Shown one piece after another: positions 19,886-63,768 of a DNA stretch of 64,000 nt. The DNA is from Geodermatophilus bullaregiensis (GTDB lineage: Bacteria > Actinomycetota > Actinomycetes > Mycobacteriales > Geodermatophilaceae). Position 1 is the first letter of the stretch, and every line of letters begins with the position of its first letter. A program made the position numbers and the translations under genes. The stretch is from contig NZ_JAFBCJ010000001.1 of NCBI RefSeq assembly GCF_016907675.1, positions 2,542,001 to 2,606,000 of the forward strand. The letters run 5' to 3'. Below the pieces are notes generated by a model. That model worked only from the letters and a program-made list of their open reading frames with translations. It searched no databases and was not told where the DNA came from.

Positions 19886-20123
19886 TGGAGACGGCGGGGG
19901 ACGGGGCGCTCGCGTCGTCCCCGTCCCGCGGCTGACCAGCGCGAAGACCACCCACCGGGTGTGGACGGGAGAAAAGTGGCAGAACTCTCGGGATCGGGCC
20001 CCGGCGTGTCACGAACCGTGACCCACCGGCCCCGGCGGTCACACGTCCACAGGGCGGCGTCCCGGCGCACCTCGCGACCGGCCGGTGACGACCTGTGGCG
20101 GTCTCACGGGCCCGGAGACGCCG

Positions 20124-20157
20124 CGAGGGGCGCCGGACGGGTGTCCGACGCCCCTCG
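20124..20157. terminator. Terminator hairpin downstream of rplI
   Basis: A 15-bp stem with one mismatch (CGAGGGGCGCCGGAC pairing with GTCCGACGCCCCTCG) and a GGGT loop, 70 bp after the rplI stop and before the dnaB promoter. Confidence 0.65.
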
Positions 20158-20167
20158 ACGGGCAGGC

Positions 20168-20226
20168 GGCCCTCCTGCAGGGTCCCGCCGCGAGCGTGCG
20201 AGCGGTGGGGGGCAGGAGGGTCCTTC
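20168..20226 (-). repeat. Stop-linked structured repeat, copy A (after rplI)
   Basis: Full-length copy read on the minus strand, starting 1 nt after the rplI stop codon. Outer arms GGACCCTCCTGC and GCAGGAGGGCC pair with a bulged A; the inner stem pairs CCCACCG with CGGCGGG around CTCGCACGCT. Confidence 0.8.
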
Positions 20227-20227
20227 T

Positions 20228-20683
20228 TCAGCCCGCGACGACCTCGATCGGCAGCGAGGCGGTCACCTCGGGGTGCACCCGCACGGTGACGGTGTGCTGG
20301 CCCGTGGTCTTGATGCTGCTGGGCAGCTCGACCCGGCGGCGGTCGAGCTCCGGGCCACCGGCCGCGGTGACGGCGTTGACGACGTCGGCGGTGGTGACGC
20401 GGCCGAACAGGCGGCCACCCGCACCGGCACGCGCCGGCACGCGGACCGTCAGGCCGGTGAGGCGCCCGGCCACGGCCTGGGCCTCCTCGAGGGAGCGCAC
20501 CTCGCGGGCGGCACGCGCCCGGCGCAGCGAGTCCACCTGCTTCTCGGCACCGCGGGTGGCGACGATGGCCAGGCCGCGGGGCAGGAGGTAGTTGCGGGCG
20601 TACCCGCCCTTGACCTCCACGGTGTCACCGGAGGACCCGAGACCGGTGACCTCCTGCGTCAGGATCAGCTTCTGGGTGCTCAT
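20228..20683 (-). CDS. rplI: 50S ribosomal protein bL9
   Basis: 151 residues beginning MSTQKLILTQEVTGLGSSGDTVEVKGGYARNYLLPRG, the diagnostic L9 N-terminal domain with its GxG-rich RNA-binding loop, followed by the long connecting helix (RARAAREVRSLEEAQAVAGRL) and the C-terminal domain. It binds 23S rRNA at the base of the L1 stalk. It starts 2 nt after the rpsR stop in the conserved rpsF-ssb-rpsR-rplI order. Confidence 0.98.
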   Translation of the reverse strand: MSTQKLILTQEVTGLGSSGDTVEVKGGYARNYLLPRGLAIVATRGAEKQVDSLRRARAAREVRSLEEAQAVAGRLTGLTVRVPARAGAGGRLFGRVTTADVVNAVTAAGGPELDRRRVELPSSIKTTGQHTVTVRVHPEVTASLPIEVVAG

Positions 20684-20685
20684 GG

Positions 20686-20922
20686 TCAGCGCGCCGTCGA
20701 GGTGTAGGGCAGCAGGGCCATCTCACGGCTGTTCTTGACGGCCGTGGCGACGTCCCGCTGGTGCTGGCTGCAGTTGCCGCTCACGCGGCGGGCACGGATC
20801 TTGCCGCGGTCGGAGATGAACTTCCGCAGCAGCGTCGTGTCCTTGTAGTCGACGTAGGTCGCCTTGTCCTTGCAGAACTGGCAGACCTTCTTCTTGGGCT
20901 TGCGCACGGGGGGCTTGGGCAC
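20686..20922 (-). CDS. rpsR: 30S ribosomal protein bS18, zinc-binding form
   Basis: 78 residues with start GTG and a GGAG eight bases upstream. The CQFC pair near the N-terminus plus GNCSQHQ further on form the ligand set of the zinc-binding (C+) type of S18; the core [17 protein letters not shown] is canonical. S18 pairs with S6 on the 30S platform. In other actinobacteria a second, cysteine-free S18 is induced under zinc starvation; no such paralogue is visible here. Confidence 0.98.
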
Positions 20923-20953
20923 TGGGTTCTCCAGGAAGTGACGGAATGGAACC

Positions 20954-21011
20954 GGCCCCCCTGCAGGGGCCCACCGCGAGCTCGCGAGCGGTGGGGGGCA
21001 GGGGGGTCCTT
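20954..21011 (-). repeat. Stop-linked structured repeat, copy B (between ssb and rpsR)
   Basis: Full-length minus-strand copy beginning 3 nt after the ssb stop codon. Outer arms GGACCCCCCTGC and GCAGGGGGGCC pair fully apart from the bulged A; inner CCCACCG pairs perfectly with CGGTGGG, where copy A has an A-C mismatch. It lies inside the operon, so it does not simply end transcription. Confidence 0.8.
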
Positions 21012-21014
21012 ACA

Positions 21015-21503
21015 TCAGAAGGGCGGTTCGTCGGACGGGCCGGCGGGCGTCGACCAGGGGTCGCTGGCCCCGCCGCCGCTGCCACCACCGAAACCGCCGC
21101 CACCGCCGCCGCCGAAGCCGCCGCCACCACCCTCACCGCGGGAGGCCTTGGTGACCTTCGCGGTGGCGTAGCGCAGCGAGGGGCCGATCTCGTCGACCTC
21201 GAGCTCGACGACAGTGCGCTTCTCGCCCTCCTTGGTCTCGAACGAGCGCTGCTTGAGGCGCCCCGAGACGATGACCCGCGAGCCGCGGGTGAGGGACTCG
21301 GCGACGTTCTCCGCCGCCTGCCGCCACACGTTGCAGCGGAGGAACAGCGCCTCGCCGTCCTTCCACTCCTGCGACTGCCGGTCGAAGGTGCGCGGCGTCG
21401 AGGCGACCGTGAAGTTGGCGACCGCGGCCCCCGACGGCGTGAACCGCAGCTCCGGGTCGGAGGTCAGGTTGCCGATCACGGTGATGACGGTCTCGCCGGC
21501 CAT
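21015..21503 (-). CDS. ssb: Single-stranded DNA-binding protein
   Basis: 162 residues. OB-fold begins [31 protein letters not shown] and runs to about residue 110 ([12 protein letters not shown]), followed by a disordered glycine-rich linker ([17 protein letters not shown]) and the acidic tip SDEPPF, the docking peptide for repair and replication partners. Tetrameric SSB coats single-stranded DNA at forks. It starts 2 nt after the rpsF stop. Confidence 0.98.
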
Positions 21504-21505
21504 GC

Positions 21506-21793
21506 TCAGTGGACCTCGGGCCGCATGAGCTTGGTGCGCAGGACCGCCTCGTTGAGGTTGAGCTGGCGGTCGAGCTCGGCGACCGCGGCGGGCTCGGCCT
21601 GGATGTCGACGATGGCGTAGATGCCCTCGACGTGCTTGTCGATCTCGTAGGCCAGGCGACGCCGGCCCCAGATCTCGGTCTTGACGGTGCCACCGCTGTT
21701 GGTGACGACGGTCAGGAACCGGTCGAGGGAGGGAGCGATCGTGCGCTCCTCCAGGTCGGGGTCGAGGATGACCATCAGTTCGTAGTGACGCAC
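21506..21793 (-). CDS. rpsF: 30S ribosomal protein bS6
   Basis: 95 residues, [17 protein letters not shown] through [37 protein letters not shown], the whole S6 fold without the glutamylated tail of enterobacteria. GTG 21793 has GAGGAGG upstream. It is the first gene of the rpsF-ssb-rpsR-rplI-dnaB cluster. The S6:S18 pair autoregulates such operons in many bacteria; a hairpin in the 110-nt leader could serve but I could not match the known motif. Confidence 0.98.
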
Positions 21794-21905
21794 GGAGAAC
21801 CCCACCTCCTCTGGTCTGTGGCGGCCGCAGGACGTCTGCAGCAGGAGGGTCGTACACGCGTCGCGCGCCCGGCCCGCCGGGACGGCGGACGAGACGCGCA
21901 GCCCG

Positions 21906-21911
21906 AGGCTA
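21906..21911 (-). promoter_or_regulatory. -10 element TAGCCT of the rpsF operon
   Basis: TAGCCT on the minus strand, about 112 bp before the rpsF start codon, leaving a GC-rich leader with potential to fold. Confidence 0.45.
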
Positions 21912-21974
21912 CCAGCGCGGCCGCCGCCGCCCGCGGGCCGTCGCGGGTGCGGGCCGTCCGCCGCGGTGCCGACG

Positions 21975-21980
21975 TAGTGT
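21975..21980 (+). promoter_or_regulatory. -10 element TAGTGT of a leaderless AP endonuclease mRNA
   Basis: TAGTGT ends 6 nt before GTG 21987 with no ribosome binding site in between. Confidence 0.5.
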
Positions 21981-21986
21981 CGCGGG

Positions 21987-22805
21987 GTGGCGACCCACCC
22001 GGTCGGCGTCCACGTCGGACCCGGCCTGACCGAGGACAACCAGCTCGACGCCGGCGGCCCGCTGGCCCGCGCGGCGGAGGTGGACGCCGACGGGGTGCAG
22101 GTCTTCCTCGGCGACCCGCAGGGCTGGAAGGTCCCGCCGCCGCGCCCCGACGCCGAGGCCCTGCTCGCCGCCGACGTCGCGGTCTTCGTGCACGCGCCCT
22201 ACGTGCTCAACGTGGCCTCGACCAACAACCGCATCCGCATCCCCAGCCGCAAGGTGCTGGCCACCCACGCCCGCGCCTCGGCGGCCATCGGGGCGCGCGG
22301 CATGGTGGTCCACGGCGGGCACGTGCTGGCCAAGGACGACCCGGCCGCCGGGTTCGACAACTGGCGCAAGACCTTCGTCCGGCAGGCCGAGGACGGCGGC
22401 TTCCCGCTGCCGCTGCTCATCGAGAACACCGCCGGCGGCGACAACGCGATGGCCCGCGGCCTGGACGCCGTCGACCGCCTGTGGGAGGCCGTCGGCGAGT
22501 TCGGCGCCGGCTTCGTCCTCGACACCTGCCACGCCTGGGCGGCCGGCTGGGACCTCGCCACGGCGGTGGACGACGTCCGCCGGACCACCGGCCGGATCGA
22601 CCTGGTGCACCTGAACAACAGCCGCGACCCGGCCGGCTCCGGCCGCGACCGGCACGCGCCGCTGGCCGCGGGGGAGATCCCGCTGGAGCTGCTGCTCGGG
22701 GTGGCCCGGGCCGCCGACTGCCCCGTCGTCCTGGAGACGCCGGGCGACGCCGCCGCGCACGCCGAGGAGGTCGCCCTGGTCCGCGAGGCGCTGAGCGGGG
22801 CGTAG
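21987..22805 (+). CDS. Endonuclease IV-type AP endonuclease / sugar-phosphate isomerase-fold protein
   Basis: 272 residues of the AP_endonuc_2 TIM barrel: VGVHVGPG at the start, [68 protein letters not shown] and VLETPG carry the histidines and acids that bind three zinc ions in endonuclease IV. It should cut DNA 5' of abasic sites in base excision repair. It is divergent from rpsF and convergent with the GT87 gene, sharing a hairpin at the two stop codons. Confidence 0.88.
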
Positions 22806-22828
22806 CGGAATGACCTCCCTGCTACGCC
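22799..22828. terminator. Convergent terminator built from both stop codons
   Basis: GGCGTAGC (22799-22806) and GCTACGCC (22821-22828) form an 8-bp stem; each arm contains the TAG stop codon of one of the two convergent genes. The loop is a 16-nt half copy of the stop-linked repeat. Confidence 0.65.
22807..22822 (+). repeat. Stop-linked structured repeat, truncated copy I
   Basis: GGAATGACCTCCCTGC, one mismatch from the left arm of the repeat family, starting 2 nt after the AP endonuclease stop codon. No right arm is present. Confidence 0.5.
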
Positions 22829-24366
22829 TCGACGCGGCGTCGCAGGGTGACCGCGTCGCCGGCGCCGTCGAGCGGGCCGCCGGCGGGGTCGTCGACGCCG
22901 GGCCACGACGTGCGGACGACGTCGCCGTCGGGGCGCCACACGTCGCGCACGACCAGGCCCATCAGCACGAGGACGGCGAGGTCGCGCACGGTCACCGCGA
23001 GGAAGAACCACTCGGTGCCCACCCCCCGGTTGTCGGTGCCGAGGTACCAGAGCATCCGCACGACCCACAGCACCGCCTCGGTGGCCTGCCAGGCCAGCAG
23101 CGAGCGCCACCGCGGCCGGGCCAGGACCGCCAGCGGCAGCAGCCACAGCGAGTACTGCGGGCTCCACACCTTGGTCACCAGCAGGAACCCGGCCACCAGC
23201 AGGAAGGCGACCTGGGCCACCCGCGGTCGCACCGGCGCGGCGAGCACCAGCCAGCCCAGCGCCGCGAACACCAGCAGCACGCAGCCGGCGACCAGCGCGT
23301 TGAGCACCGTGGGCGTCTCGCCCTCGGCCAGCGGCCCGTCGAACAGCGTCCCGCCCGAGGCGGTGATCGCCATGTTCCACAGGGTGTCGGGATCGGCCGG
23401 CCGGCTGCTGTTGAGCCGGAAGAACAGCGACCAGTTCTCCGGCGCCAGCAGCGCCACCGGGACGTCGACCACGAGCCAGGCGACGCCGGCGGCGAGCGCC
23501 GCGCGCAGCCACACCCGCAGCCGGCCGGCCCGCAGGCACAGCAGGAACAGCGCCCCGAGCAGGATCGCCGGGAACAGCTTGGCCGCGGCGCCCAGCCCGA
23601 GCAGGACGCCGGCCAGCACCGGCCGCTCGCGCGCCCACGCCCACAGGCCGCACGCGGCCAGGGCGACGGCGAACAGGTCCCAGTTGGTGAAGGCGTGCAC
23701 GAGCAGGAGCGGGGAGAGGCCGACCGCGGCCGCGTCCCACGGCCGGTGCCCGGAGGCGCCGAGGACGGCGCGGGTGGTGACCAGCGCGCACAGGCTCAGC
23801 AGCAGGCAGGTGGCCACGTAGTAGGCCTGCACCGGCGGCACCTGGGGGAGCAGCCCGGCCGCCGTCGCCAGGCTCCCGTAGGCGCTGCCGAGGGTGGCCG
23901 CCAGCGCCATGAAGGCGCCGGTGAGGACGGGGTACTCGACGGCCGAGTCGAGGTAGGGCAGCGCGCCGCCGTCGAGGCCGTGGATGCCGAACAGCGGGAC
24001 GGTGTCGGAGTAGCAGAAGTGGGTGTACTGCACCGAGCCCGCCCAGTTGCCGTCCGAGCAGGGCGACTGCTTGAGCCAGGCCAGCGCCAGCACGGCCGTG
24101 GTGAACAGCAGGCACACGCGCAGGGGCGTCCAGAACAGCGCCCGCCCGGTCACCGCGTGCCGCCCCCAGGGCCCGCCCACGGCCTCGCTGGCCTGCGCGG
24201 CCACCGGGTCCGACCAGGTGGGCACCACCCGGTCGGGGCCGGGAGACCCCACCGGGCCGGGACCGCGGCCGGCCGCGGGAGCGGCGGGCTCCGGTCCCGG
24301 GAACGCCGCGGGCCCGTCCGCCGGCGGTGTCGCCGGGGCGGACGGGCCCGTGGGGGAGGAGCTCAC
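22822..24366 (-). CDS. GT87-family polyprenol-dependent mannosyltransferase-like membrane protein
   Basis: 514 residues. A disordered 75-residue start is followed by about ten hydrophobic segments (for example VCLLFTTAVLALAW, LAGVLLGLGAAAKLFPAILLGALFLLCL) and the catalytic-loop pattern of GT-C enzymes near the first segment (PYLDSAVEYPVLTGAFM), with Asp/Glu residues expected to activate the acceptor. GT87 (DUF2029) members such as PimE add mannose from polyprenyl-phosphate-mannose on the outer face of the membrane. The M. tuberculosis homologue position is Rv0051, likewise next to ponA1. GTG 24366 follows the PBP stop by 22 nt. Confidence 0.82.
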   Translation of the reverse strand: MSSSPTGPSAPATPPADGPAAFPGPEPAAPAAGRGPGPVGSPGPDRVVPTWSDPVAAQASEAVGGPWGRHAVTGRALFWTPLRVCLLFTTAVLALAWLKQSPCSDGNWAGSVQYTHFCYSDTVPLFGIHGLDGGALPYLDSAVEYPVLTGAFMALAATLGSAYGSLATAAGLLPQVPPVQAYYVATCLLLSLCALVTTRAVLGASGHRPWDAAAVGLSPLLLVHAFTNWDLFAVALAACGLWAWARERPVLAGVLLGLGAAAKLFPAILLGALFLLCLRAGRLRVWLRAALAAGVAWLVVDVPVALLAPENWSLFFRLNSSRPADPDTLWNMAITASGGTLFDGPLAEGETPTVLNALVAGCVLLVFAALGWLVLAAPVRPRVAQVAFLLVAGFLLVTKVWSPQYSLWLLPLAVLARPRWRSLLAWQATEAVLWVVRMLWYLGTDNRGVGTEWFFLAVTVRDLAVLVLMGLVVRDVWRPDGDVVRTSWPGVDDPAGGPLDGAGDAVTLRRRVEA

Positions 24367-24388
24367 CTGCGCCAGTGTGCCGGGCGGG

Positions 24389-26788
24389 TCAGCCGGCCGG
24401 CCGGCCGTCCGGTAGCGGGGCCGGCGCAGGTGCCGGCTCCGGCGCGGGTGCCGGGGCCGGGGCCGGTGCCGGGGCCGGTGCGCCGGCCTGGTCGCCGGTG
24501 TCCTCGACGTCAGGGGCCGGCACCGGGGCGGGCACCGGCTCCGGCACCGGCACGGGCGCCGGCTCCGGCGCGGGTGCCGGGGCCTCCGTGGTGGGCGGCG
24601 CCGGGGCCTCCGTGGTGGGCGGCGGTGCCTCCGTGGTCGGCTGCTGGGTCGGCTGCGACTGCGTCGTCGGCGCGGACGACGTCGTCGGCGCGGCCACGCC
24701 CTCGCCCGTGTCGCCCCGGATGCGCGGCGAGTTGGGCAGGTCCTCCTCGGGCGTGCCCTCGAGGACGGTGTCCATGAACTGCTGCCAGATGGCGCCCGGC
24801 AGGCCCGAGCCGTAGATGATCCCGCCGTCGGAGTTGACGATCGGGTCGCTGGGCGAGTCGTTGCCCATCCACACCGCGGTCGAGATCGACGGGGTGTAGC
24901 CGACCATCCAGGCGTCGGAGTTGTCCTCACCCTGCCCCTGGGTACCGGTCTTGCTGGCCACCTCGCGGCCGCCCTCGAGCGAGCGACGCGAGTACTGGGC
25001 GACGCCCTCCGTCGCGAAGGTGACGTCGTTGGCGACCTCGGGGCGCAGCACCTGCTCACCGCTCTCGCCGCCGTACTCCAGCAGCACCGCGCCGGAGGTG
25101 TCGCTGACCCGGCTGACGAAGTACGGCGCCCGCTCCACCCCGCCGGCGGCGAAGGTGGCGAAGCCGTGCGCCTGGTCGATCGGGCGCATCTCGTACTCGC
25201 CGATGCCGATCGCCGATCCGGTGAAGCCGTCGGCGTTGGCCAGCGTGGTGTTGCCCCCGAGCGGGCCGCCCTGCCACGTCTCGGGCAGGCCGGTGGCCGC
25301 CAGCGCCGTCTCCCGGACGTTCTCCGGGCCCACCTCGTAGGCCAGCCCGTAGAAGGTGGTGTTCAGCGAGCGGGTCATCGCCTCGACCAGCGTGCACGCC
25401 CCGCACGAGGCGCCGCCGGAGTTGCGCACCGGGGCCTCGCGGTCGGGGAAGGTCTGCGGCGAGGAGCCGTCACGCCGGGCGTTGACGCTGATGCCCTGGT
25501 CCAGTGCGGTGGCCAGCACGTAGGGCTTCATCGACGAGCCGGGCTGCCGCTGCCCCTGCGCGTAGTCGTTGCCCGTGCCGTTCGCGCCGCCGTAGTAGGC
25601 GCGGACCGCGCCGGTGCGCGGGTCGATGGCCACCAGCGCCTGCCGCAGGTTCTCCGGCTCGCCCTCCATCACGTCGGTCACGGCGGCCAGCGCGGCGTCC
25701 TGGGCGGGCTTGTCGACGGTCGTGACGATCTGCAGACCGCCGGCCAGCAGCTGCTGGTCGGTGTAGCCCTTGGCCCGCAGCTCGTCGATGGCCTGCTGCA
25801 CGACCAGGCCCTCCGGGCCGGACGGGATGCCCTGCGACGAGCCCTCCGGCCGCGGCAGCACCGGCGGGTAGACCGAGGCCTCGCGCTCGGCCGGGGTCAT
25901 CCAGCCCTCCTCGACCATCGCGTCGAGGACCAGGCCCCAGCGGTCCTGCGCGCCCTCCGCGTTGCCCTCGGGGTCGTAGGAGCTGGGGCTGCGGACCAGG
26001 ACGGCGAGGACGGCGCCCTGCTGCGGGGTCAGCTCCGCGGCCGAGACGCCGAAGTAGGTGTTCGCCGCGGCCTCGATGCCGTAGGCGCCGCGGCCGAAGT
26101 AGATGGTGTTGAGGTAGTTCTCGAGGATCTCGTCCTTCGAGTACTCGTTGTCGAGCTTGACCGCGAGGAACAGCTCCTGGAACTTGCGGCTGAAGGTCTG
26201 CTCCGACGTCAGGAACGCGTTCTTGACGTACTGCTGGGTGATCGTCGAGCCACCCTGCGTGGAGCCGCCGGTGACGTTGTTCCACGCCGCCCGGACGATG
26301 CCGGTGAAGGAGATGCCCGGGTCGGAGTAGAAGTTCCGGTTCTCGGCGGCGAGCACCGCGTCGCGGGCGCCCTCGGAGACGTCGGCCAGCGCCACGTTGG
26401 TGCGGTTGGTGTCGCCCAGGCGGGCCATCTCGGTGGTGCCGTCGGCGTAGTAGACGACGGTCGTCTGCGCGCTCTGCACCGAGTCGGGGTCCGGGACCTC
26501 GGTGGTGGCGTAGACGACGCCGACGAAGACGCCGAACAGGACGAACAGCCCGGCCAGGGTGGCCAGGGCGATCTTGAGCCGGCGACGGCGGCGCTGCTTC
26601 TTCGTGCGCGCCTTCTTGCCGGACGGTGCGGCGCCCGCGGGGCGCGCACCGGGACGGGAGCCGCCGGGGCGGCCCGCCGTCGAGCGGGCACGGACGGCGG
26701 GCGGACGGCCCCCGGAGCCGCGGCCGGCCGGCGGGCGCCGGGGCGGGCCCTGCGGGCCGACCGGCGAGGTCTCGTCGTGGGGAGGCAC
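24389..26788 (-). CDS. ponA: Class A penicillin-binding protein (transglycosylase-transpeptidase)
   Basis: 799 residues. A basic Pro-rich cytoplasmic tail of about 75 residues, one membrane anchor (IALATLAGLFVLFGVFVGVVY), the GT51 glycosyltransferase with AAENRNFYSDPG and GGSTITQQYVKN, then the transpeptidase with S418-S-M-K421, SLN (TRSLNTTF) and K613-T-G. The last 110 residues are a Pro/Ala/Glu low-complexity tail (PAPAPAPAPEPAP). It polymerises and crosslinks peptidoglycan outside the membrane. GTG 26788 has GAGGAGG upstream. Order DUF5318-ponA-GT87 matches M. tuberculosis Rv0049-Rv0050-Rv0051. Confidence 0.96.
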   Translation of the reverse strand: MPPHDETSPVGPQGPPRRPPAGRGSGGRPPAVRARSTAGRPGGSRPGARPAGAAPSGKKARTKKQRRRRRLKIALATLAGLFVLFGVFVGVVYATTEVPDPDSVQSAQTTVVYYADGTTEMARLGDTNRTNVALADVSEGARDAVLAAENRNFYSDPGISFTGIVRAAWNNVTGGSTQGGSTITQQYVKNAFLTSEQTFSRKFQELFLAVKLDNEYSKDEILENYLNTIYFGRGAYGIEAAANTYFGVSAAELTPQQGAVLAVLVRSPSSYDPEGNAEGAQDRWGLVLDAMVEEGWMTPAEREASVYPPVLPRPEGSSQGIPSGPEGLVVQQAIDELRAKGYTDQQLLAGGLQIVTTVDKPAQDAALAAVTDVMEGEPENLRQALVAIDPRTGAVRAYYGGANGTGNDYAQGQRQPGSSMKPYVLATALDQGISVNARRDGSSPQTFPDREAPVRNSGGASCGACTLVEAMTRSLNTTFYGLAYEVGPENVRETALAATGLPETWQGGPLGGNTTLANADGFTGSAIGIGEYEMRPIDQAHGFATFAAGGVERAPYFVSRVSDTSGAVLLEYGGESGEQVLRPEVANDVTFATEGVAQYSRRSLEGGREVASKTGTQGQGEDNSDAWMVGYTPSISTAVWMGNDSPSDPIVNSDGGIIYGSGLPGAIWQQFMDTVLEGTPEEDLPNSPRIRGDTGEGVAAPTTSSAPTTQSQPTQQPTTEAPPPTTEAPAPPTTEAPAPAPEPAPVPVPEPVPAPVPAPDVEDTGDQAGAPAPAPAPAPAPAPEPAPAPAPLPDGRPAG

Positions 26789-26913
26789 CAGGGAGCCCCT
26801 CCTCGTGGTGGTAGGTGGGCGGGACGGGGTCCCGCCCAGCGTGGCGTTCTCGGCTGTGTGGACCCGGGAGGACGCGCGCGGGCGCCGTCCCCCCGGGACG
26901 TGTGTGACGAACG

Positions 26914-26935
26914 GGCCGGCGGTCCCCCGCCGGCC
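26914..26935. terminator. Terminator hairpin after the DUF5318 gene
   Basis: A perfect 9-bp stem GGCCGGCGG/CCGCCGGCC with TCCC loop, 2 bp beyond the minus-strand stop codon. Confidence 0.6.
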
Positions 26936-26937
26936 GG

Positions 26938-27357
26938 CTACCGCTGCTCGGTGCCGGCGCGGCGCCGGGCCCGGCGCGGCTGGCGACCGGGGGCCGGCTC
27001 GGCCCCCAGGACGTACGAGGAGTCCAGGTGGTTCCAGCCGCACGCCCGGCACACCTCGACGGTGTAGACGGAGAACTCCTCCTGCGCGGCGTCCATCCGG
27101 GCGAGTTCGGTCTCGGTCTTCGCCTGCCCGGACACGTGCCCGAGCGACTCGCCGTAGACGTAGTTCACCTGCGTGAGGCGCTCGCGGCGGCACACCGGGC
27201 AGGGGAGGTCGGTGAGCCGGCCGTGGTACCTCGCGGCGCGGGTGAGGTACGGGCTGGCGTCACAGACCTCGAAGACCCCGGTGCGCCCGGACTGCACGTC
27301 GGCGAGGACGGCTCGCCGTTGCAGCGAGTAGTCCACGACGGAGCGACGTCCGGGCAC
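26938..27357 (-). CDS. DUF5318 family zinc-ribbon protein
   Basis: 139 residues. Begins VPGRRSVVDYSLQRRAVLADV and carries two cysteine pairs, LPCPVCRRE and EVCRACGWNH, that form a probable zinc ribbon, followed by a basic C-terminal tail. It corresponds to Rv0049 in gene order (upstream of ponA). No function is established. The GTG start has TACATT seven bases upstream and no ribosome binding site. Confidence 0.8.
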   Translation of the reverse strand: MPGRRSVVDYSLQRRAVLADVQSGRTGVFEVCDASPYLTRAARYHGRLTDLPCPVCRRERLTQVNYVYGESLGHVSGQAKTETELARMDAAQEEFSVYTVEVCRACGWNHLDSSYVLGAEPAPGRQPRRARRRAGTEQR

Positions 27358-27364
27358 GGCCGCC

Positions 27365-27370
27365 AATGTA
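27365..27370 (-). promoter_or_regulatory. -10 element TACATT of a leaderless DUF5318 mRNA
   Basis: TACATT on the minus strand ends 7 nt before GTG 27357. Confidence 0.55.
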
Positions 27371-27465
27371 CGCAGGTGCGCCACCCCCGAGGTCGCTCGA
27401 GCGCCACCCGCGGGGGTCACCCGATCGGGCGCGACGGACCTCCAGTTGCGGCCCCGTTCACCTCC

Positions 27466-27488
27466 CGATGTATCGTCCCGATACATCG
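27466..27488. promoter_or_regulatory. PadR operator
   Basis: Perfect inverted repeat CGATGTATCG-TCC-CGATACATCG (10-3-10), 14 bp before the PadR start codon. The ATGTAT/ATACAT half-sites are those bound by PadR-family dimers, so this is most likely an autoregulatory site. Confidence 0.8.
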
Positions 27489-27502
27489 ACCGACACGGAC
27501 CG

Positions 27503-28108
27503 ATGGGGGGCGGAGTGCTCGAGTTCGCCATCCTCGGCCTGCTGCAGCAGGCCCCCATGCACGGCTACGAGCTGCGCAAGCAGCTCGCCGAGGTGCTCGG
27601 GGGGCTGCGCAGCATCTCCTACGGCTCGCTGTACCCCGCGCTCAAGCGGTTGCACGCCGCCGGGCTGGTCACCACCGACGAGCCCGACCGGCACGCGCCG
27701 CTGCCGGCCGACGCACCGCCGCTCACCGGCCGGCGCGGGAAGGTGGTCTACACGATCACCGCTGAGGGCAAGGAGCGCTTCGCCGAGCTGGTCAGCCAGG
27801 CCGGCCCCGAGGCGTACGACGACGGCAGGCTCTTCGGCGTCCACCTGGCCTTCTTCCGGCACACCGCCGCCGACGTGCGGCTGCGCATCCTCGAAGGGCG
27901 CCGCCGCACGGTCGAACGGCAGCGGGAGGGTCTGCGGTCCTCACTGGCGAGGACCCGGGAACGGCTCGACCGCTACACGCTGGAGCTGCAGCGCCACGGC
28001 CTCGACTCGGTCGACCGGGAGGTGCGCTGGCTGTCGGAGCTCATCGACAGCGAGCGGCGCGACCCGGGCCCGGGTCAGCCCCCGGAGCCGCAGCGCGGCG
28101 CCGACTGA
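27503..28108 (+). CDS. PadR-family transcriptional regulator
   Basis: 201 residues. Winged helix: EFAILGLLQQAPMHGYELRKQLAEVLGGLRSISYGSLYPALKRLHAAGLV, wing ending GRRGKVVYTITAEGKERF, then a C-terminal dimerisation helix region (AADVRLRILEGRRRTVERQREGL) of the Vir_act_alpha_C type. Its position directly before inositol-1-phosphate synthase is that of Rv0047c beside Rv0046c (ino1) in M. tuberculosis, so it may regulate inositol synthesis as well as itself. I chose ATG 27503: the ATG at 27446 lies upstream of the operator, and GTG 27515 is a possible alternative. Confidence 0.88.
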   Translation: MGGGVLEFAILGLLQQAPMHGYELRKQLAEVLGGLRSISYGSLYPALKRLHAAGLVTTDEPDRHAPLPADAPPLTGRRGKVVYTITAEGKERFAELVSQAGPEAYDDGRLFGVHLAFFRHTAADVRLRILEGRRRTVERQREGLRSSLARTRERLDRYTLELQRHGLDSVDREVRWLSELIDSERRDPGPGQPPEPQRGAD

Positions 28109-28246
28109 CCGAGCACGACCGCCGAGCACGACTGCCGGGCCCACCGCCCGCAGAGCACCACCGGCTGCCCGCCCCACCGGCAGCCACCGCCAGGACCGAA
28201 CGGTCCCGAGAACGAGGACCACCCGGTCCAGGGAGAAGGGAAGACC

Positions 28247-29326
28247 ATGGGAGCTGTCAAGGTCGCCATCGTCGGCGTCGGGAACTGCGCCGCCTCGCTG
28301 GTGCAGGGCGTGCACTACTACCGGGACGCGGACGAGACCGCCTCGGTGCCGGGCCTGATGCACGTGCGCTTCGGCGAGTACCACGTCTCCGACGTGCAGT
28401 TCGTCGCCGCGTTCGACGTCGACGCCAAGAAGGTCGGCCGTGACCTCTCCGAGGCCATCGTCGCCAGCGAGAACAACACGATCAAGATCTGCGACGTCCC
28501 GCCGCTGGGCGTGCCGGTGCAGCGCGGCACCACCCTCGACGGCCTCGGCCGCTACTACCGGGAGACGATCGAGGAGTCCGACGAGCAGCCGGTCGACGTC
28601 GTCGCCGCCCTGCGCGAGTCCGGTGCCGACGTCCTCGTCTGCTACCTGCCGGTCGGCTCGCAGGAGGCCGCCGAGTTCTACGCGCAGGCCGCCCTCGACG
28701 CCGGCGTCGCGTTCGTCAACGCCCTGCCGGTCTTCATCGCCGGGACCCGGGAGTGGGCCGACAAGTTCACCGCGGCCGGCGTCCCGATCGTCGGCGACGA
28801 CATCAAGAGCCAGGTCGGCGCCACCATCACCCACCGGGTGCTGGCCAAGCTGTTCGAGGACCGCGGCGTGCAGCTCGACCGCACGATGCAGCTCAACGTC
28901 GGCGGCAACATGGACTTCAAGAACATGCTCGAGCGCGAGCGCCTGGAGTCCAAGAAGATCTCCAAGACCCAGGCGGTCACCAGCCAGGTCGGCCGCGACA
29001 TGGGCCAGGGCAACGTGCACATCGGCCCCTCGGACCACGTGCCGTGGCTGTCGGACCGCAAGTGGGCCTACGTGCGCCTCGAGGGCCGCGCGTTCGGCGA
29101 CGTCCCGCTGAACCTGGAGTACAAGCTCGAGGTCTGGGACTCCCCGAACTCGGCCGGCATCATCATCGACGCCGTCCGCGCGGCCAAGATCGCCAAGGAC
29201 CGGGGCGTGGGCGGCCCGCTGCTGTCGGCGTCGTCGTACTTCATGAAGTCCCCGCCGGAGCAGTACCGCGACAGCGAGGCCCGCGACAAGGTCGAGGCCT
29301 TCATCCGCGGCGAGCTCGAGCGGTAG
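28247..29326 (+). CDS. ino1: Inositol-3-phosphate (myo-inositol-1-phosphate) synthase
   Basis: 359 residues, the short actinobacterial type. Rossmann motif [16 protein letters not shown] at the start, then the characteristic [20 protein letters not shown] and [21 protein letters not shown] motifs of the NAD-dependent enzyme. It converts glucose 6-phosphate to inositol phosphate, the precursor of phosphatidylinositol, PIM lipids and mycothiol. ATG 28247 is preceded by AGGGAGAAGGGA. A copy of the stop-linked repeat begins within the stop codon and a terminator follows. Confidence 0.96.
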
Positions 29327-29385
29327 AAGGACCTCCCTGCCCCCCACCCCTCGCACGCTCGGGGCGGGACCCTGCAGGCAGGCCG
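29326..29385 (+). repeat. Stop-linked structured repeat, copy C (after ino1)
   Basis: Full-length copy whose first base is the G of the TAG stop. Compared with copy A the inner stem has exchanged G-C for C-G (CCCACCC pairing with GGGCGGG), a compensatory change. The next 15 nt, GTTCCAGCACGTCACC region, recur after copy D. Confidence 0.8.
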
Positions 29386-29396
29386 TTCCAGCACGT

Positions 29397-29435
29397 CACC
29401 AGGACCCGGTCCCCGCACGGGGGCGGGTCCTGGTG
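29397..29435. terminator. Terminator hairpin after ino1
   Basis: A perfect 12-bp stem CACCAGGACCCG/CGGGTCCTGGTG with a 15-nt loop. Confidence 0.7.
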
Positions 29436-29499
29436 CGTCTGCGGCCGCCGGATCCGCGGGTCGCCGCGCGTGCGACGACGGAGCCGCACCCGCGCTGAA

Positions 29500-29505
29500 T
29501 ACGCT
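29500..29505 (+). promoter_or_regulatory. -10 element TACGCT of a leaderless lipoprotein mRNA
   Basis: TACGCT ends 7 nt before ATG 29513, without a ribosome binding site. Confidence 0.5.
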
Positions 29506-29512
29506 GGCCGCC

Positions 29513-30271
29513 ATGCCGCGCCGCCTGCTCGCGATCGCGCTCGTCCTGCTGGCGGTCCTGCTCACCGGCTGCTCCGACGACCCCACCGACCGGCAGCCCG
29601 GGGACCCGGTCACCGCCGAGGAGGCCGAGGTGCTCGCCGGGCTGCTCGCTGGCAACGCGGAGGAGGGCGGCGCCGACGTCGTCGTGACCGCGCCCTTCGG
29701 CGAGGGCGGGCTGCTCACCCTGACCGGGGAGGTCGACCTGGCCGGCGCCGCCGGCCGCGCCCGCTCGGTGACCTCCTACGGCGACGAGCGGCCCGACGAC
29801 GTCCGCACCGCGTTCTTCACCCCGGAGCAGATCTGGTTCGGCGACCTGCCGGGGCTGCCGGAGGCGCTCGCCGCCGCCGGGCTGCCCGACGTCCCCTTCG
29901 TGCGCCGGCCGGTCGTGACGGGGACCGAGGCGGTGCCCCTGACCGACGTGCTCGTACGGCTGGTGCTCAACCTGGGCGCGGCCGAGCCCGACGACGCCGG
30001 CGCCTTCACCGGCGGCGGCACCACCTGGGAGGGGCAGCGCTCGATCGACGGGCGGCTGGCCTCGGTGTACGCCTCCGACGCGGGCTGGACGGTGGCCGTG
30101 GACGACAGCAGCGGCGTGCTGCTGCAGTACGTGACGCGACTGCCGGGCCAGGACGCCGACGTGACCGTGACGCTGGCCGACCACGGGCCGCGGACGATCG
30201 CGCTGCCGGAGGAGGCACAGACGGTGGACGCGGGAGCCCACCCGGCGGTGGCGGCGGCGGTCGGCGTCTGA
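29513..30271 (+). CDS. Secreted lipoprotein, LppX/LprG-like fold suspected
   Basis: 252 residues. Signal peptide MPRRLLAIALVLLAVLLTGC with lipobox LLTGC, so the mature protein is anchored by a lipid on Cys20. The mature part is rich in beta strands (GLLTLTGEVDLAG, TAFFTPEQIWFG, WTVAVDDSSGVLLQYVTRL), recalling the mycobacterial lipid-carrier lipoproteins, but this similarity is only by pattern. Stands alone between ino1 and the convergent yqgE. Confidence 0.75.
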   Translation: MPRRLLAIALVLLAVLLTGCSDDPTDRQPGDPVTAEEAEVLAGLLAGNAEEGGADVVVTAPFGEGGLLTLTGEVDLAGAAGRARSVTSYGDERPDDVRTAFFTPEQIWFGDLPGLPEALAAAGLPDVPFVRRPVVTGTEAVPLTDVLVRLVLNLGAAEPDDAGAFTGGGTTWEGQRSIDGRLASVYASDAGWTVAVDDSSGVLLQYVTRLPGQDADVTVTLADHGPRTIALPEEAQTVDAGAHPAVAAAVGV

Positions 30272-30294
30272 GGAGGGACCCCTGCAGAGGGGCC
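30272..30294 (+). repeat. Stop-linked structured repeat, minimal copy G (after the lipoprotein)
   Basis: GGACCCCTGCAGAGGGGCC core beginning directly after the stop codon: only the outer arms remain, with the bulged A preserved. Confidence 0.6.
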
Positions 30295-30326
30295 ACGGGG
30301 CGGCTCGGCCGGCCCCGGACGTGGGT

Positions 30327-30361
30327 GGAGGGGGCGGCCTCTTCCCCAGACCGCCCCCTCC
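30327..30361. terminator. Convergent terminator between the lipoprotein and yqgE
   Basis: An 11-bp perfect stem GGAGGGGGCGG/CCGCCCCCTCC with a 13-nt loop, followed on the plus strand by a short T run. Confidence 0.7.
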
Positions 30362-30421
30362 GGCCCCTTTCCTACCAGACCCGGGCCGGACGCGCCTCCC
30401 CTGGGGAGGTGTCGTGTCGCG

Positions 30422-31087
30422 TCAGTTGGCCGAGGGGTCGGCCGGTGCCGTCGAGAGCACCGCCAGGCGCCCGCGCTGCCGGCCCAGGACCGCGCGCCAC
30501 AGCGCGGAGCCGGCCAGGTCGCTGAGCACGTCGCCTGGTGTGCCGGGCACGCAGGCCCAGGCGCCCTCGGCGATCTCCCCGGCCAGCTGGCCCGGTGACC
30601 AGCCGGCGTAGCCGGCGAACACCCGCAGGCCGGCCAGGCCGCCGTCGAGCGCGCCCGGGTCGGCGTCGAGGTCGACGAGGTAGACGTCGCCGGCCACCCG
30701 GCGCAGGCCGGCGTCCTCCGCGCCTGCCGCGCCCGGCCAGCTCGCCAGGCACAGCGCGGTGTCGGTCTCGCACGGGCCGCCGACGTGGAAGACGCCGGGC
30801 TCGACGGCGAGGTCGCACCAGCCGGGCAGGACGTCGCGGATCTCGACCTGGCTGGGCCGGCCGAGCACGACGCCCAGCGTGCCGCTGTCGTTGTGGTCGA
30901 GCACGTAGACGACGCCGCCGGCGAAGTTGGGGTCGGTCAGCGCGGGCATCGCGACCAGCAGGGACCCGGGGCCCACGTCGTCGAGCGACCCGGTCGACAG
31001 CGACGGGACCGCCGCGCGGCGGCGGCCCGTGCCCGGGCGGCTGGGCCGGCCGGACTCCGGATCAGGTGACGAGGGCACCGTGGACAT
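30422..31087 (-). CDS. YqgE/AlgH family protein (UPF0301)
   Basis: 221 residues. After a disordered 30-residue start comes the family core: GSLLVAMPALTDPNFAGGVVYVLDHNDSGTLGVVLGRPS, VFHVGGPCETD, RVFAGYAGWSPGQLAGEIAEGAWACV. The molecular role of the family is unsettled; Rv0038 is the M. tuberculosis member, also beside an MFS gene (Rv0037c). Divergent from the MFS gene with 63 bp between starts. Confidence 0.9.
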   Translation of the reverse strand: MSTVPSSPDPESGRPSRPGTGRRRAAVPSLSTGSLDDVGPGSLLVAMPALTDPNFAGGVVYVLDHNDSGTLGVVLGRPSQVEIRDVLPGWCDLAVEPGVFHVGGPCETDTALCLASWPGAAGAEDAGLRRVAGDVYLVDLDADPGALDGGLAGLRVFAGYAGWSPGQLAGEIAEGAWACVPGTPGDVLSDLAGSALWRAVLGRQRGRLAVLSTAPADPSAN

Positions 31088-43318: not shown

Positions 43319-43322
43319 GCAC

Positions 43323-43343
43323 GGACCTCCCTGCAGGGAGGCC
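43323..43343 (+). repeat. Stop-linked structured repeat, minimal copy F (after trxA)
   Basis: GGACCTCCCTGC continuing directly into AGGGAGGCC, starting 4 nt after the trxA stop: outer arms only, perfectly paired apart from the bulged A. Confidence 0.65.
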
Positions 43344-43350
43344 GCCTGCT

Positions 43351-43392
43351 CGACAGGGCCCACCCGTCCACCAGGACGGGTGGGCCCTGTCG
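43351..43392. terminator. Terminator hairpin after trxA
   Basis: A perfect 19-bp stem with an ACCA loop; the stem contains GGGCCCACCCGTCC. Confidence 0.85.
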
Positions 43393-56603: not shown

Positions 56604-57767
56604 ATGGAGTTCCGGGTGACACGCGAGGTGCTCGCCGATGCCGTCGCGTGGACGGCGCGCAGCCTGCCGCCGCGCCCGTCGGTGCCGGTGCTCGCCGGCA
56701 TCCTGCTCGAGGTCGACGGCAGCCAGCTGTCGGTGTCCGGCTTCGACTACGAGGTCTCTGCGCGCGCGGAGGTCGACGTGCAGGGCGGGGAGAGCGGCCG
56801 CGTGCTCGTCCCCGGCCGGCTGCTGGCCGAGATCACCCGGGCGCTGCCGCCGCACCCGGTCGAGGTCCGTGCCGAGGGCCCGCGCCTGTCGATCACCTGC
56901 GGCAACGCCCGGTTCAGCCTGCCGACGCTGCCGGTCGAGGACTACCCGTCCCTGCCGTCCATGCCGTCGTCGGCGGGTGTGGTCGACAGCGACGTGTTCG
57001 CCGAGGCGGTCGCCCAGGTCGCCGTCGCCGCCGGGCGCGACGACACCCTGCCGATGCTCACCGGCGTGCGGCTGGAGATCGACGACGACCGGGTGACCCT
57101 CGCGGCCACCGACCGCTACCGGCTGGCGGTGCGCGAGTTCGCCTGGCGCCCGGAGACCCCGGGGGTCTCGGCCGCCGTGCTGGTGCCCGCCCGGACGCTG
57201 GCCGAGGCGGCCCGGACGCTGACCAGCGGCCCGGAGATCGTCGTCTCGCTGTCCTCCGGCGGCTCGGGCGAGGGCATCCTCGGCCTGTCCGGCAAGGACC
57301 GGCAGACCACCACCCGGCTGCTCGACGCCGAGTTCGTGAAGTACCGGGCGATCATGCCGAGCGACTCCAGCGCCAACGCGACGCTGCCGGTCGTGCCGTT
57401 CACCGACGCCGCCAAGCGGGTGGCGCTGGTCGCCGAGCGGGGCACCCCGCTGCGCTGCGAGTTCACCCCCGGCCAGGTGACCCTGCGCGCCGGCGGCAGC
57501 GACGACGAGGGCCAGGCCGAGGAGCGCTGCGACGTCGAGTTCGACGGCGACCCGCTGACCATCGGCTTCAACCCGACGTTCCTGCTCGACGGGCTGGCCG
57601 CGGTGCACACCGGCCGGGCGCGGATGGACTTCACCAGCCCGCTCAAGCCCGCCGTGCTCTCCGGTGTCGAGGAGCCGGCCGCCGACGACGGGGACGGCGC
57701 CCAGCGCCCTGCCGACCGCCCGGGCAGCTACCGCTACCTGATCATGCCGGTGCGCCTGCCCGGCTGA
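56604..57767 (+). CDS. dnaN: DNA polymerase III sliding clamp (beta)
   Basis: 387 residues, MEFRVTREVLADAVAWTARSLPPRPSVPVLAGILLEVDG through YRYLIMPVRLPG, with the three repeated clamp domains and the C-terminal MPVRL strand that takes clamp-binding peptides. ATG 56604 is preferred to an ATG 33 codons upstream because MEFRV matches family starts. An acidic insertion PAADDGDGAQRPADRPGS sits just before the last strand. A copy of the stop-linked repeat begins 1 nt after the stop. Confidence 0.97.
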   Translation: MEFRVTREVLADAVAWTARSLPPRPSVPVLAGILLEVDGSQLSVSGFDYEVSARAEVDVQGGESGRVLVPGRLLAEITRALPPHPVEVRAEGPRLSITCGNARFSLPTLPVEDYPSLPSMPSSAGVVDSDVFAEAVAQVAVAAGRDDTLPMLTGVRLEIDDDRVTLAATDRYRLAVREFAWRPETPGVSAAVLVPARTLAEAARTLTSGPEIVVSLSSGGSGEGILGLSGKDRQTTTRLLDAEFVKYRAIMPSDSSANATLPVVPFTDAAKRVALVAERGTPLRCEFTPGQVTLRAGGSDDEGQAEERCDVEFDGDPLTIGFNPTFLLDGLAAVHTGRARMDFTSPLKPAVLSGVEEPAADDGDGAQRPADRPGSYRYLIMPVRLPG

Positions 57768-57826
57768 GGAGGACCCTCCTGCCCTCACCGTGGGAGGCCC
57801 CGGCGGCGGGACCCCGCAGGAGGGCC
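57768..57826 (+). repeat. Stop-linked structured repeat, copy E (after dnaN)
   Basis: Outer arms GGACCCTCCTGC and GCAGGAGGGCC pair perfectly with the bulged A; the internal region is diverged (CTCACCGTGGGAGG) from the other copies. Confidence 0.7.
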
Positions 57827-58871: not shown

Positions 58872-58984
58872 GGAGGACCCCCCTGCCCCCCGGGAAGGAC
58901 CTCCCTGCCCCCCACCGCTCGCAGGCTCGCGGCGGGCCCCTGCAGGAAGGCCGACAGAGGCTCGTGGGGGCTTGCAGGGGGGGC
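58872..58984 (+). repeat. Stop-linked structured repeat, outer copy D interrupted by an inner copy
   Basis: GGAGGACCCCCCTGCCCCCC starts 1 nt after the gnd stop; its right arm GCAGGGGGGGC resumes at 58974-58984 and is followed by GTTCCAGCACCTCACC, which also follows copy C. The middle is occupied by a complete second copy. Confidence 0.7.
58894..58952 (+). repeat. Stop-linked structured repeat, inner copy D2
   Basis: Full-length copy (GAAGGACCTCCCTGC ... TGCAGGAAGGCC) with inner stem CCCACCG/CGGCGGG as in copy A, lying inside the outer copy. Confidence 0.8.
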
Positions 58985-63712: not shown

Positions 63713-63768
63713 GGCCCGGCCGGGTCCCGCCGCGAGCCTGCGAGTGGTGGGGGGTAGGGGGTCCTTCC
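63713..63768 (-). repeat. Stop-linked structured repeat, diverged copy H
   Basis: Minus-strand copy with intact left part (GGAAGGACCCCCTACCCCCC, then ACCACTCGCAGGCTCGCGG) but a right arm altered to GGCCGGGCC. It lies about 145 bp beyond the stop of the partial gene at the right edge. Confidence 0.65.

Follow-up and report, generated by a model that had tools for sequence, protein, structure and literature searches.

The genome of Geodermatophilus bullaregiensis carries a family of palindromic elements, with at least 154 matches to a covariance model (E up to 1), and most of the copies listed start immediately behind a stop codon. Copy number is high, orthologous sites may be filled or empty, one copy can be nested in another, and the elements lie 0–5 nt past stops, mostly in the direction of the gene. 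Placement of this kind, which is patchy and recurrent and in places nested or reversed, speaks for a dispersed DNA element. The explanation that we hold to be most likely, with a probability of about 0.5, is a REP-like mobile hairpin: a dispersed palindromic DNA element that is inserted right behind stop codons and moved in trans by an enzyme.

Copies in the analysed window

The window is a stretch of 64,000 nt (positions 2,542,001 to 2,606,000 of Geodermatophilus bullaregiensis contig NZ_JAFBCJ010000001.1). Its rplI product shares 97% identity with the one from G. tzadiensis. A preliminary description of this DNA had named nine related copies, and all nine places exist, one of them (fragment I) as a left-arm fragment. 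Copies A, B and C are full length. Copy A (20168..20227, minus strand) has its GGACC motif 4 nt past the stop of rplI (TGA). In copy B (20954..21013, minus strand) the motif is 5 nt past the ssb stop, and the element is 31 nt ahead of the presumed GTG start of S18 (rpsR). Copy C (29325..29384, plus strand) has GGACC 2 nt past the ino1 stop (TAG) and carries the 3′ tail GTTCCAGCACGTCACC. Copy D had been given as an outer and an inner structure, and proves to be a nested pair: the outer copy (58872..58984, plus strand), with GGACC 4 nt past the stop of a phosphogluconate dehydrogenase gene, is split by a full element at 58893..58952 (plus strand). Copy E (57767..57826, plus strand) is an inner stem variant with GGACC 3 nt past the dnaN stop. 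Copies F (43319..43343, plus strand; GGACC 4 nt past the thioredoxin stop) and G (30270..30294, plus strand) are short forms, the latter adjoining the stop of an ORF without a family match and having GGGACC in place of GGACC. Both short forms have the appearance of deletion products: the sequence CCCTGC is present twice in the full element, and by eye the loss of one repeat with the intervening sequence yields F exactly. Copy H (63713..63768, minus strand) has no coding-like stop adjoining it, and fragment I (22807..22822, plus strand) consists of the left arm only, past the stop of a deoxyribonuclease IV gene. In each of copies A to G, GGACC (GGGACC in G) is 2–5 nt past the stop.

A covariance model comprising two helices and the bulged A was built from 23 copies. 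Scores in the window were 87.2 bits for A, 86.3 for B, 83.9 for inner D, 48.7 for E, 45 for H, 24.7 for F and 13.9 for G, and E-values were at most 4e-8 for A, B, C, inner D, E and H, 0.0018 for F and 0.53 for G; A, B, C, inner D and E lie in the model's own alignment, so that the independent matches are H, F and G only. The proposal that the copies form one family is supported.

Architecture and copy number

The genomic figure of 154 is a lower bound (150 candidates were scored), and 150 copies are among the matches listed. Elements are about 60–80 nt long and have two variable stems that stay complementary. The foot (RGAAGG-A-CC / GG-CC-G), the unpaired C-rich stretches and the loop, CTCGC..GCTCG, are constant. 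Among 133 copies, the places 5′ of GGACC hold A (126/133), then A or G (132/133), then mostly G (98/133). GGCC is followed by G in 103 of 118 copies and then by variable bases, with RGAA on the 5′ side. The 3′ tail is optional; 21 of 118 copies show CGTC together with TTCC, and T past the element was enriched mainly at places 2 and 3 (35 and 37 of 118; the optional TTCC). Identity to the nearest neighbour has a median of 93%, mean pairwise identity is 79% and exact duplicates are few. The copies are old.

Pattern searches gave a similar picture of abundance. The 13-mer GGACCYCCCTGCM had 31 matches in the genome versus 1 for the pattern read backwards, although by eye some of the 31 (L002, L004, L020 and L030) lie outside the family. 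The short pattern TGANNAAGGACC occurred 70 times versus 8 for the backward control, 39 times at listed model matches and 31 times elsewhere. Six of these 31 unlisted sites, read by eye, comprised one listed copy, four element-like sites (two of another subfamily, one half form and one variant) and one apparent chance occurrence in a gene. Compound arrangements also occur. Five matches form a tandem array with a spacing of about 50 nt at 2660003–2660256 (L198), where the GAAGGACC foot is absent from the later units, and at 2122640–2122760 (L188) and 2408740–2408860 (L190) both feet read TGANNAAGGACC outward, with TGA 4 nt from each side.

Elements are positioned immediately behind stop codons

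With coding ORFs called by a test of GC content by codon position, 98 of the 150 listed copies start 0–5 nt past a same-strand coding-like stop, 58 of them at exactly 4 nt; the others comprise 5 at 7–60 nt and 47 without a coding-like stop in the stretch searched. The excess adjoining stops extends to the whole genome. Under a looser ORF test, 105 of the 150 fell within 8 nt of a stop, 4 were reversed at a convergent stop, 2 lay inside an ORF, 10 were partial tandem copies and 29 were classed as other, several of these last being 11–80 nt from a convergent stop. Sense orientation adjoining stops exceeds reversed by 105 to 4, or about 25:1, among the listed copies. The elements had been described as reading in the same direction as the gene, which is strongly the case but not absolutely so, as some are reversed behind a stop; one such copy, at L064, is separated by 4 nt from the convergent stop of a coding-like ORF, and L071 lacks it.

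The same placement was found in other genomes of the family. Among 36 loci holding the best-scoring copies of those genomes (L236–L271; 30 from other genera), 24 copies were forward at 8 nt or less, with a mode of 4 nt, 1 was reversed and 11 were neither. Two half forms, L003 and L008, start 4 and 0 nt past coding-like stops. Forty-one full copies had no nearby coding-like stop; TGA was present at the usual place in 5 of them, most ending a long ORF. In the same set 6 copies have TAGT, and 5 have CAGT, ahead of them where the stop codon would be. These 11 copies include L186, L163 and L218, and copy H of the window is preceded in the same manner.

Genes upstream of the element are varied, as judged by eye from the proteins of 20 drawn at random. 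A DNA target motif alone is not an obvious explanation for the choice of real stop codons. Transfer RNA genes were considered as a second kind of neighbour and rejected, 1 tRNA having been found in 33 loci scanned. Separately, copies were observed at or inside DUF222-domain genes at three sites in this genome: L198 (2663911, minus strand), L231 (4856847, minus strand) and L221 (3883459, plus strand). At L231 an HNH motif lies behind the element in a different frame, so the DUF222 gene looks interrupted.

Orthologous sites are filled in some species and empty in others

Three gene ends were traced through 53 rows (the window, L042–L092 and L108) and placed on a quick tree built from three proteins. 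Because only a model match counted as presence, short forms and remote subfamilies are entered as absent. After ssb the element is present in 23 of 52 species, for which the tree needs 13 changes. After rplI, 12 of 53 species are filled and 12 changes are required, equal to the number of presences, and the copies fall into different subfamilies. After ino1 we found 9 forward and 3 reversed elements among 39, with 8 changes on the tree for forward versus the rest and 11 for any element; at one of these loci (L059) the sequence is forward and the model matches both strands. Tree changes cannot separate gain from loss. All three ends are filled above the few percent expected from about 150 copies and an assumed 5,000 or so genes, a biased comparison, since these ends were picked because the window is filled there.

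Filled and empty loci were compared by eye. In L060 versus L052 the insert lies between TGA and the next base, and in L053 versus L052 it takes over part of the stop codon. Flanks diverge, and no clear target-site duplication was seen by eye in the filled/empty pairs compared. Some empty sites (L056, L080 and L083) hold what look by eye like collapsed remains. The coexistence of filled and empty orthologous sites is what is looked for in a mobile element.

Covariation and departures from pairing

Stem covariation in the window was accurately described: one inner-stem G-C pair is swapped between copies A and C, and the A-C mismatch of copy A is A-T in copy B. It also exceeds controls. In a plain alignment of 23 copies, 21 double-change cells were counted versus 6.8 in shuffles, and 64 copies gave 172 versus 53.6 in shuffled and at most 20 in slid versions, this larger alignment being fitted to the model's structure, which favours the covariation count.

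One expects an RNA helix, as a rule, to accept G.U but not A.C. In 69 distinct 60-nt copies from this genome we counted 19 G.U and 80 A.C cells (18 and 33 when pair 22-41 is left out); the outer helix alone gave 10 G.U versus 11 A.C, and the 64-copy set gave 15 and 48 (12 and 14 without the matching pair). The rplI hairpin, used as a control, had 52 G.U and 1 A.C, with 48 of the 52 G.U in one column and counts of 4 G.U and 1 A.C elsewhere; it is a weak control that varies little and has most of its columns fixed by the search pattern itself. Transfer RNAs were too few to serve (2 in 80 loci), and a second terminator matched at only 1 locus and was dropped. The departures show no sense-RNA wobble signature, a result that is suggestive, not decisive. 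In copies A, B and C the better fold is that of the antisense strand, where A.C turns into U.G. Sense RNA accounts for these data no better than a hairpin at the DNA level or arm-to-arm correction does, and A.C departures that equal or exceed G.U do not support selection on a folded sense RNA, originally offered as the cause of the covariation. RNA may have a role in individual copies, and antisense RNA may have one too.

Paired changes could arise without selection if template switching in a quasi-palindrome copied one arm onto the other. We give this account of the covariation somewhat less than even odds; it concerns the covariation only and is compatible with a REP-like mobile element. It would explain why G-C to C-G swaps have almost no intermediates (pair 13-68: CG 32, GC 18, UA 12, other 1), and it agrees with the occurrence of perfect palindromes, such as that behind ino1 in L053, where even the foot has turned symmetric, and of both-sided copies between convergent genes. 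The correction would have to be incomplete, because the A.C mismatch at pair 22-41 is kept in 47 of 69 copies and the bulged A also persists; the latter had been called invariant and is instead near-invariant, being A in 65 of 70 60-nt copies and G in the other 5. The same counts could also come from subfamily inheritance.

Rather unlikely, in our estimate, is a functional 3′-UTR RNA element that guards the end of the mRNA, acts as a block to Rho or shields the gene that follows, with selection holding the distance of 0–5 nt. Such a role would account for the tight spacing, the 105 to 4 (about 25:1) preference for sense orientation, stems that remain paired, the occupation of the ssb, rplI and ino1 ends in many species, and the SD-like AAGGA in the foot. 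It sits poorly with A.C departures at least as numerous as G.U (with the caveat that the control had only 4 G.U to 1 A.C outside one column), with patchiness among sister species, with the nearly complete genomes G026 and G054, which have no match, with the existence of reversed and both-sided copies, and with the better antisense folding of the three full copies tested. Of the suggestion that these are 3′-UTR RNA elements, the placement past stops has stood, and the RNA part is weakened by the patchy, nested and reversed placement.

Elements are distinct from the terminators of the genes examined

The copies are not terminators of the genes looked at. As GC-rich stable hairpins past stops they resemble ordinary intrinsic terminators of the adjoining genes, but they have no T-run, and copies A, B, C and G were not among the 3 terminator-like sites given by a consensus scan of 20000–30500. 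A separate, conserved hairpin behind copy A (20123..20157, minus strand) is the likely rplI terminator. Of 53 loci, 51 have a match to its pattern past the rplI stop, the exceptions being L081 and L085. It is found both where the element is present, in which case the element precedes it, and where the element is absent. A separate downstream hairpin was also seen by eye at ino1. Copy B lies within an operon, 31 nt ahead of rpsR, and because 23 of 52 species have an element in the ssb-rpsR gap, a strong terminator at this point would deprive them of S18 and L9 transcription. The earlier argument that copy B speaks against simple termination was sound, and we regard the terminator explanation as very improbable. 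Behind copy F, a separate hairpin at 43352–43391, which matches the model weakly on both strands, is perhaps the thioredoxin terminator.

Taxonomic range and search for a mover

All 26 genomes of the genus carry the 13-mer. Across the Geodermatophilaceae the model matched (E up to 1e-4) in 101 of 112 genomes, which represent 9 of 12 genera. The scan scored 48 candidates in each genome; 82 of these 101 had at least 40 matches, and few were found in G042, G032 and G075 (2, 4 and 5). No model match was found in 11 of the 112 genomes, including G026 and G054, for both of which completeness is 99% or more. Outside the genome studied here, none of 295 further genomes sampled across the class matched under stricter filters, and among 80 named loci surrounding rplI there was no match in the 28 that, by their titles, come from other families. 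The family is confined to the Geodermatophilaceae in this sample.

Y1_Tnp, the domain of Y1/RAYT transposases, was found in 0 of the 26 genus genomes, including that of G. bullaregiensis, versus 5 of 14 control genomes. The high copy number, bulged palindrome, tag-like GAAG at the foot and clusters bring to mind classical REP/REPIN elements with a RAYT as mover, but these are scarcely credible here given the missing transposase and a tag of G[AG]AG instead of GTAG (none of 133 copies has T at the second position of the tag). Two other candidate movers were rejected: reverse transcriptase (RVT_1) was present in 7 of 17 chosen genomes, copy-rich and copy-poor alike, and DUF222 proteins in 17 of 17, copy-poor ones included. 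A search for carriage by plasmids, phages or viruses gave no match with copy A as query and one pattern. Rfam gave 0 matches at gathering over the window, and none around copy B when E-values up to 1 were admitted, in agreement with the initial impression that no named family was involved.

Comparison with known repeats

MIRU repeats of mycobacteria spread into sites overlapping stop codons; they are not known to be palindromes. As far as the accessible parts of the sources go, GTAG REPs (PMC3733652, PMC2817692) resemble the present family in that they are palindromes of high copy number, have a short tag and stems that vary yet remain complementary, and are found mostly downstream of genes and patchy among species. 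They are 20–40 bp long, whereas the element described here has 60–80 nt and two stems, a GAAG/GGAG tag, no Y1/RAYT in the genus and a position locked to 0–5 nt. Actinobacteria are not among the phyla to which the same portions assign GTAG repeats (PMC3733652, PMC2817692). In what is available of PMC3733652, untagged REP-like repeats, without GTAG or CGTC, are recorded in M. tuberculosis and others; one host is thus an actinobacterium, and the likeness is one of description. CGTC REPs and Rickettsia palindromic elements are also covered in these portions (PMC3733652), and are alike in being palindromic and having no dedicated transposase, but the present element has no CGTC at its foot, this motif being seen in the optional 3′ tail. 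REPs inside genes are on record there as well (PMC3733652). No title or abstract opening among the partial listings of the literature describes the family, and it is not mentioned in the accessible text of PMC3733652, PMC2817692, PMC6006769, PMC9686282 or PMC3035280.

A proposed mobile hairpin at gene ends

For the REP-like mobile hairpin that we favour, copies would spread as DNA, and the enzyme, acting in trans, would read the constant foot and the hairpin, probably in single-stranded form. A constant foot and loop beside freely varying stems are what an enzyme that reads structure would be expected to conserve. Position may be set by targeting of gene ends, by purging of insertions elsewhere, or by both. 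Several points weigh against this explanation: none of the candidate movers sought fits, the pairs compared show no clear target-site duplication, the copies are old, tree changes leave gain and loss indistinguishable, the control for the wobble count is weak, and the choice of real stop codons is not obviously explained by a DNA motif alone. A more specific version, in which the hairpin is guided to genuine in-frame stops, for example via an exposed DNA or RNA state where translation terminates, and uses an undescribed enzyme instead of a Y1 transposase, strikes us as a long shot.

Our results would add a REP-like family in an actinobacterial group for which no description was found in the literature searched, and this family would be without the enzyme that is thought to move REPs. 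Its tight target rule, 4 nt past a stop codon, raises the question of how the ends of genes are recognised by an insertion machinery or by selection. The family also carries a caution: a bacterial repeat may covary strongly without being a functional RNA.
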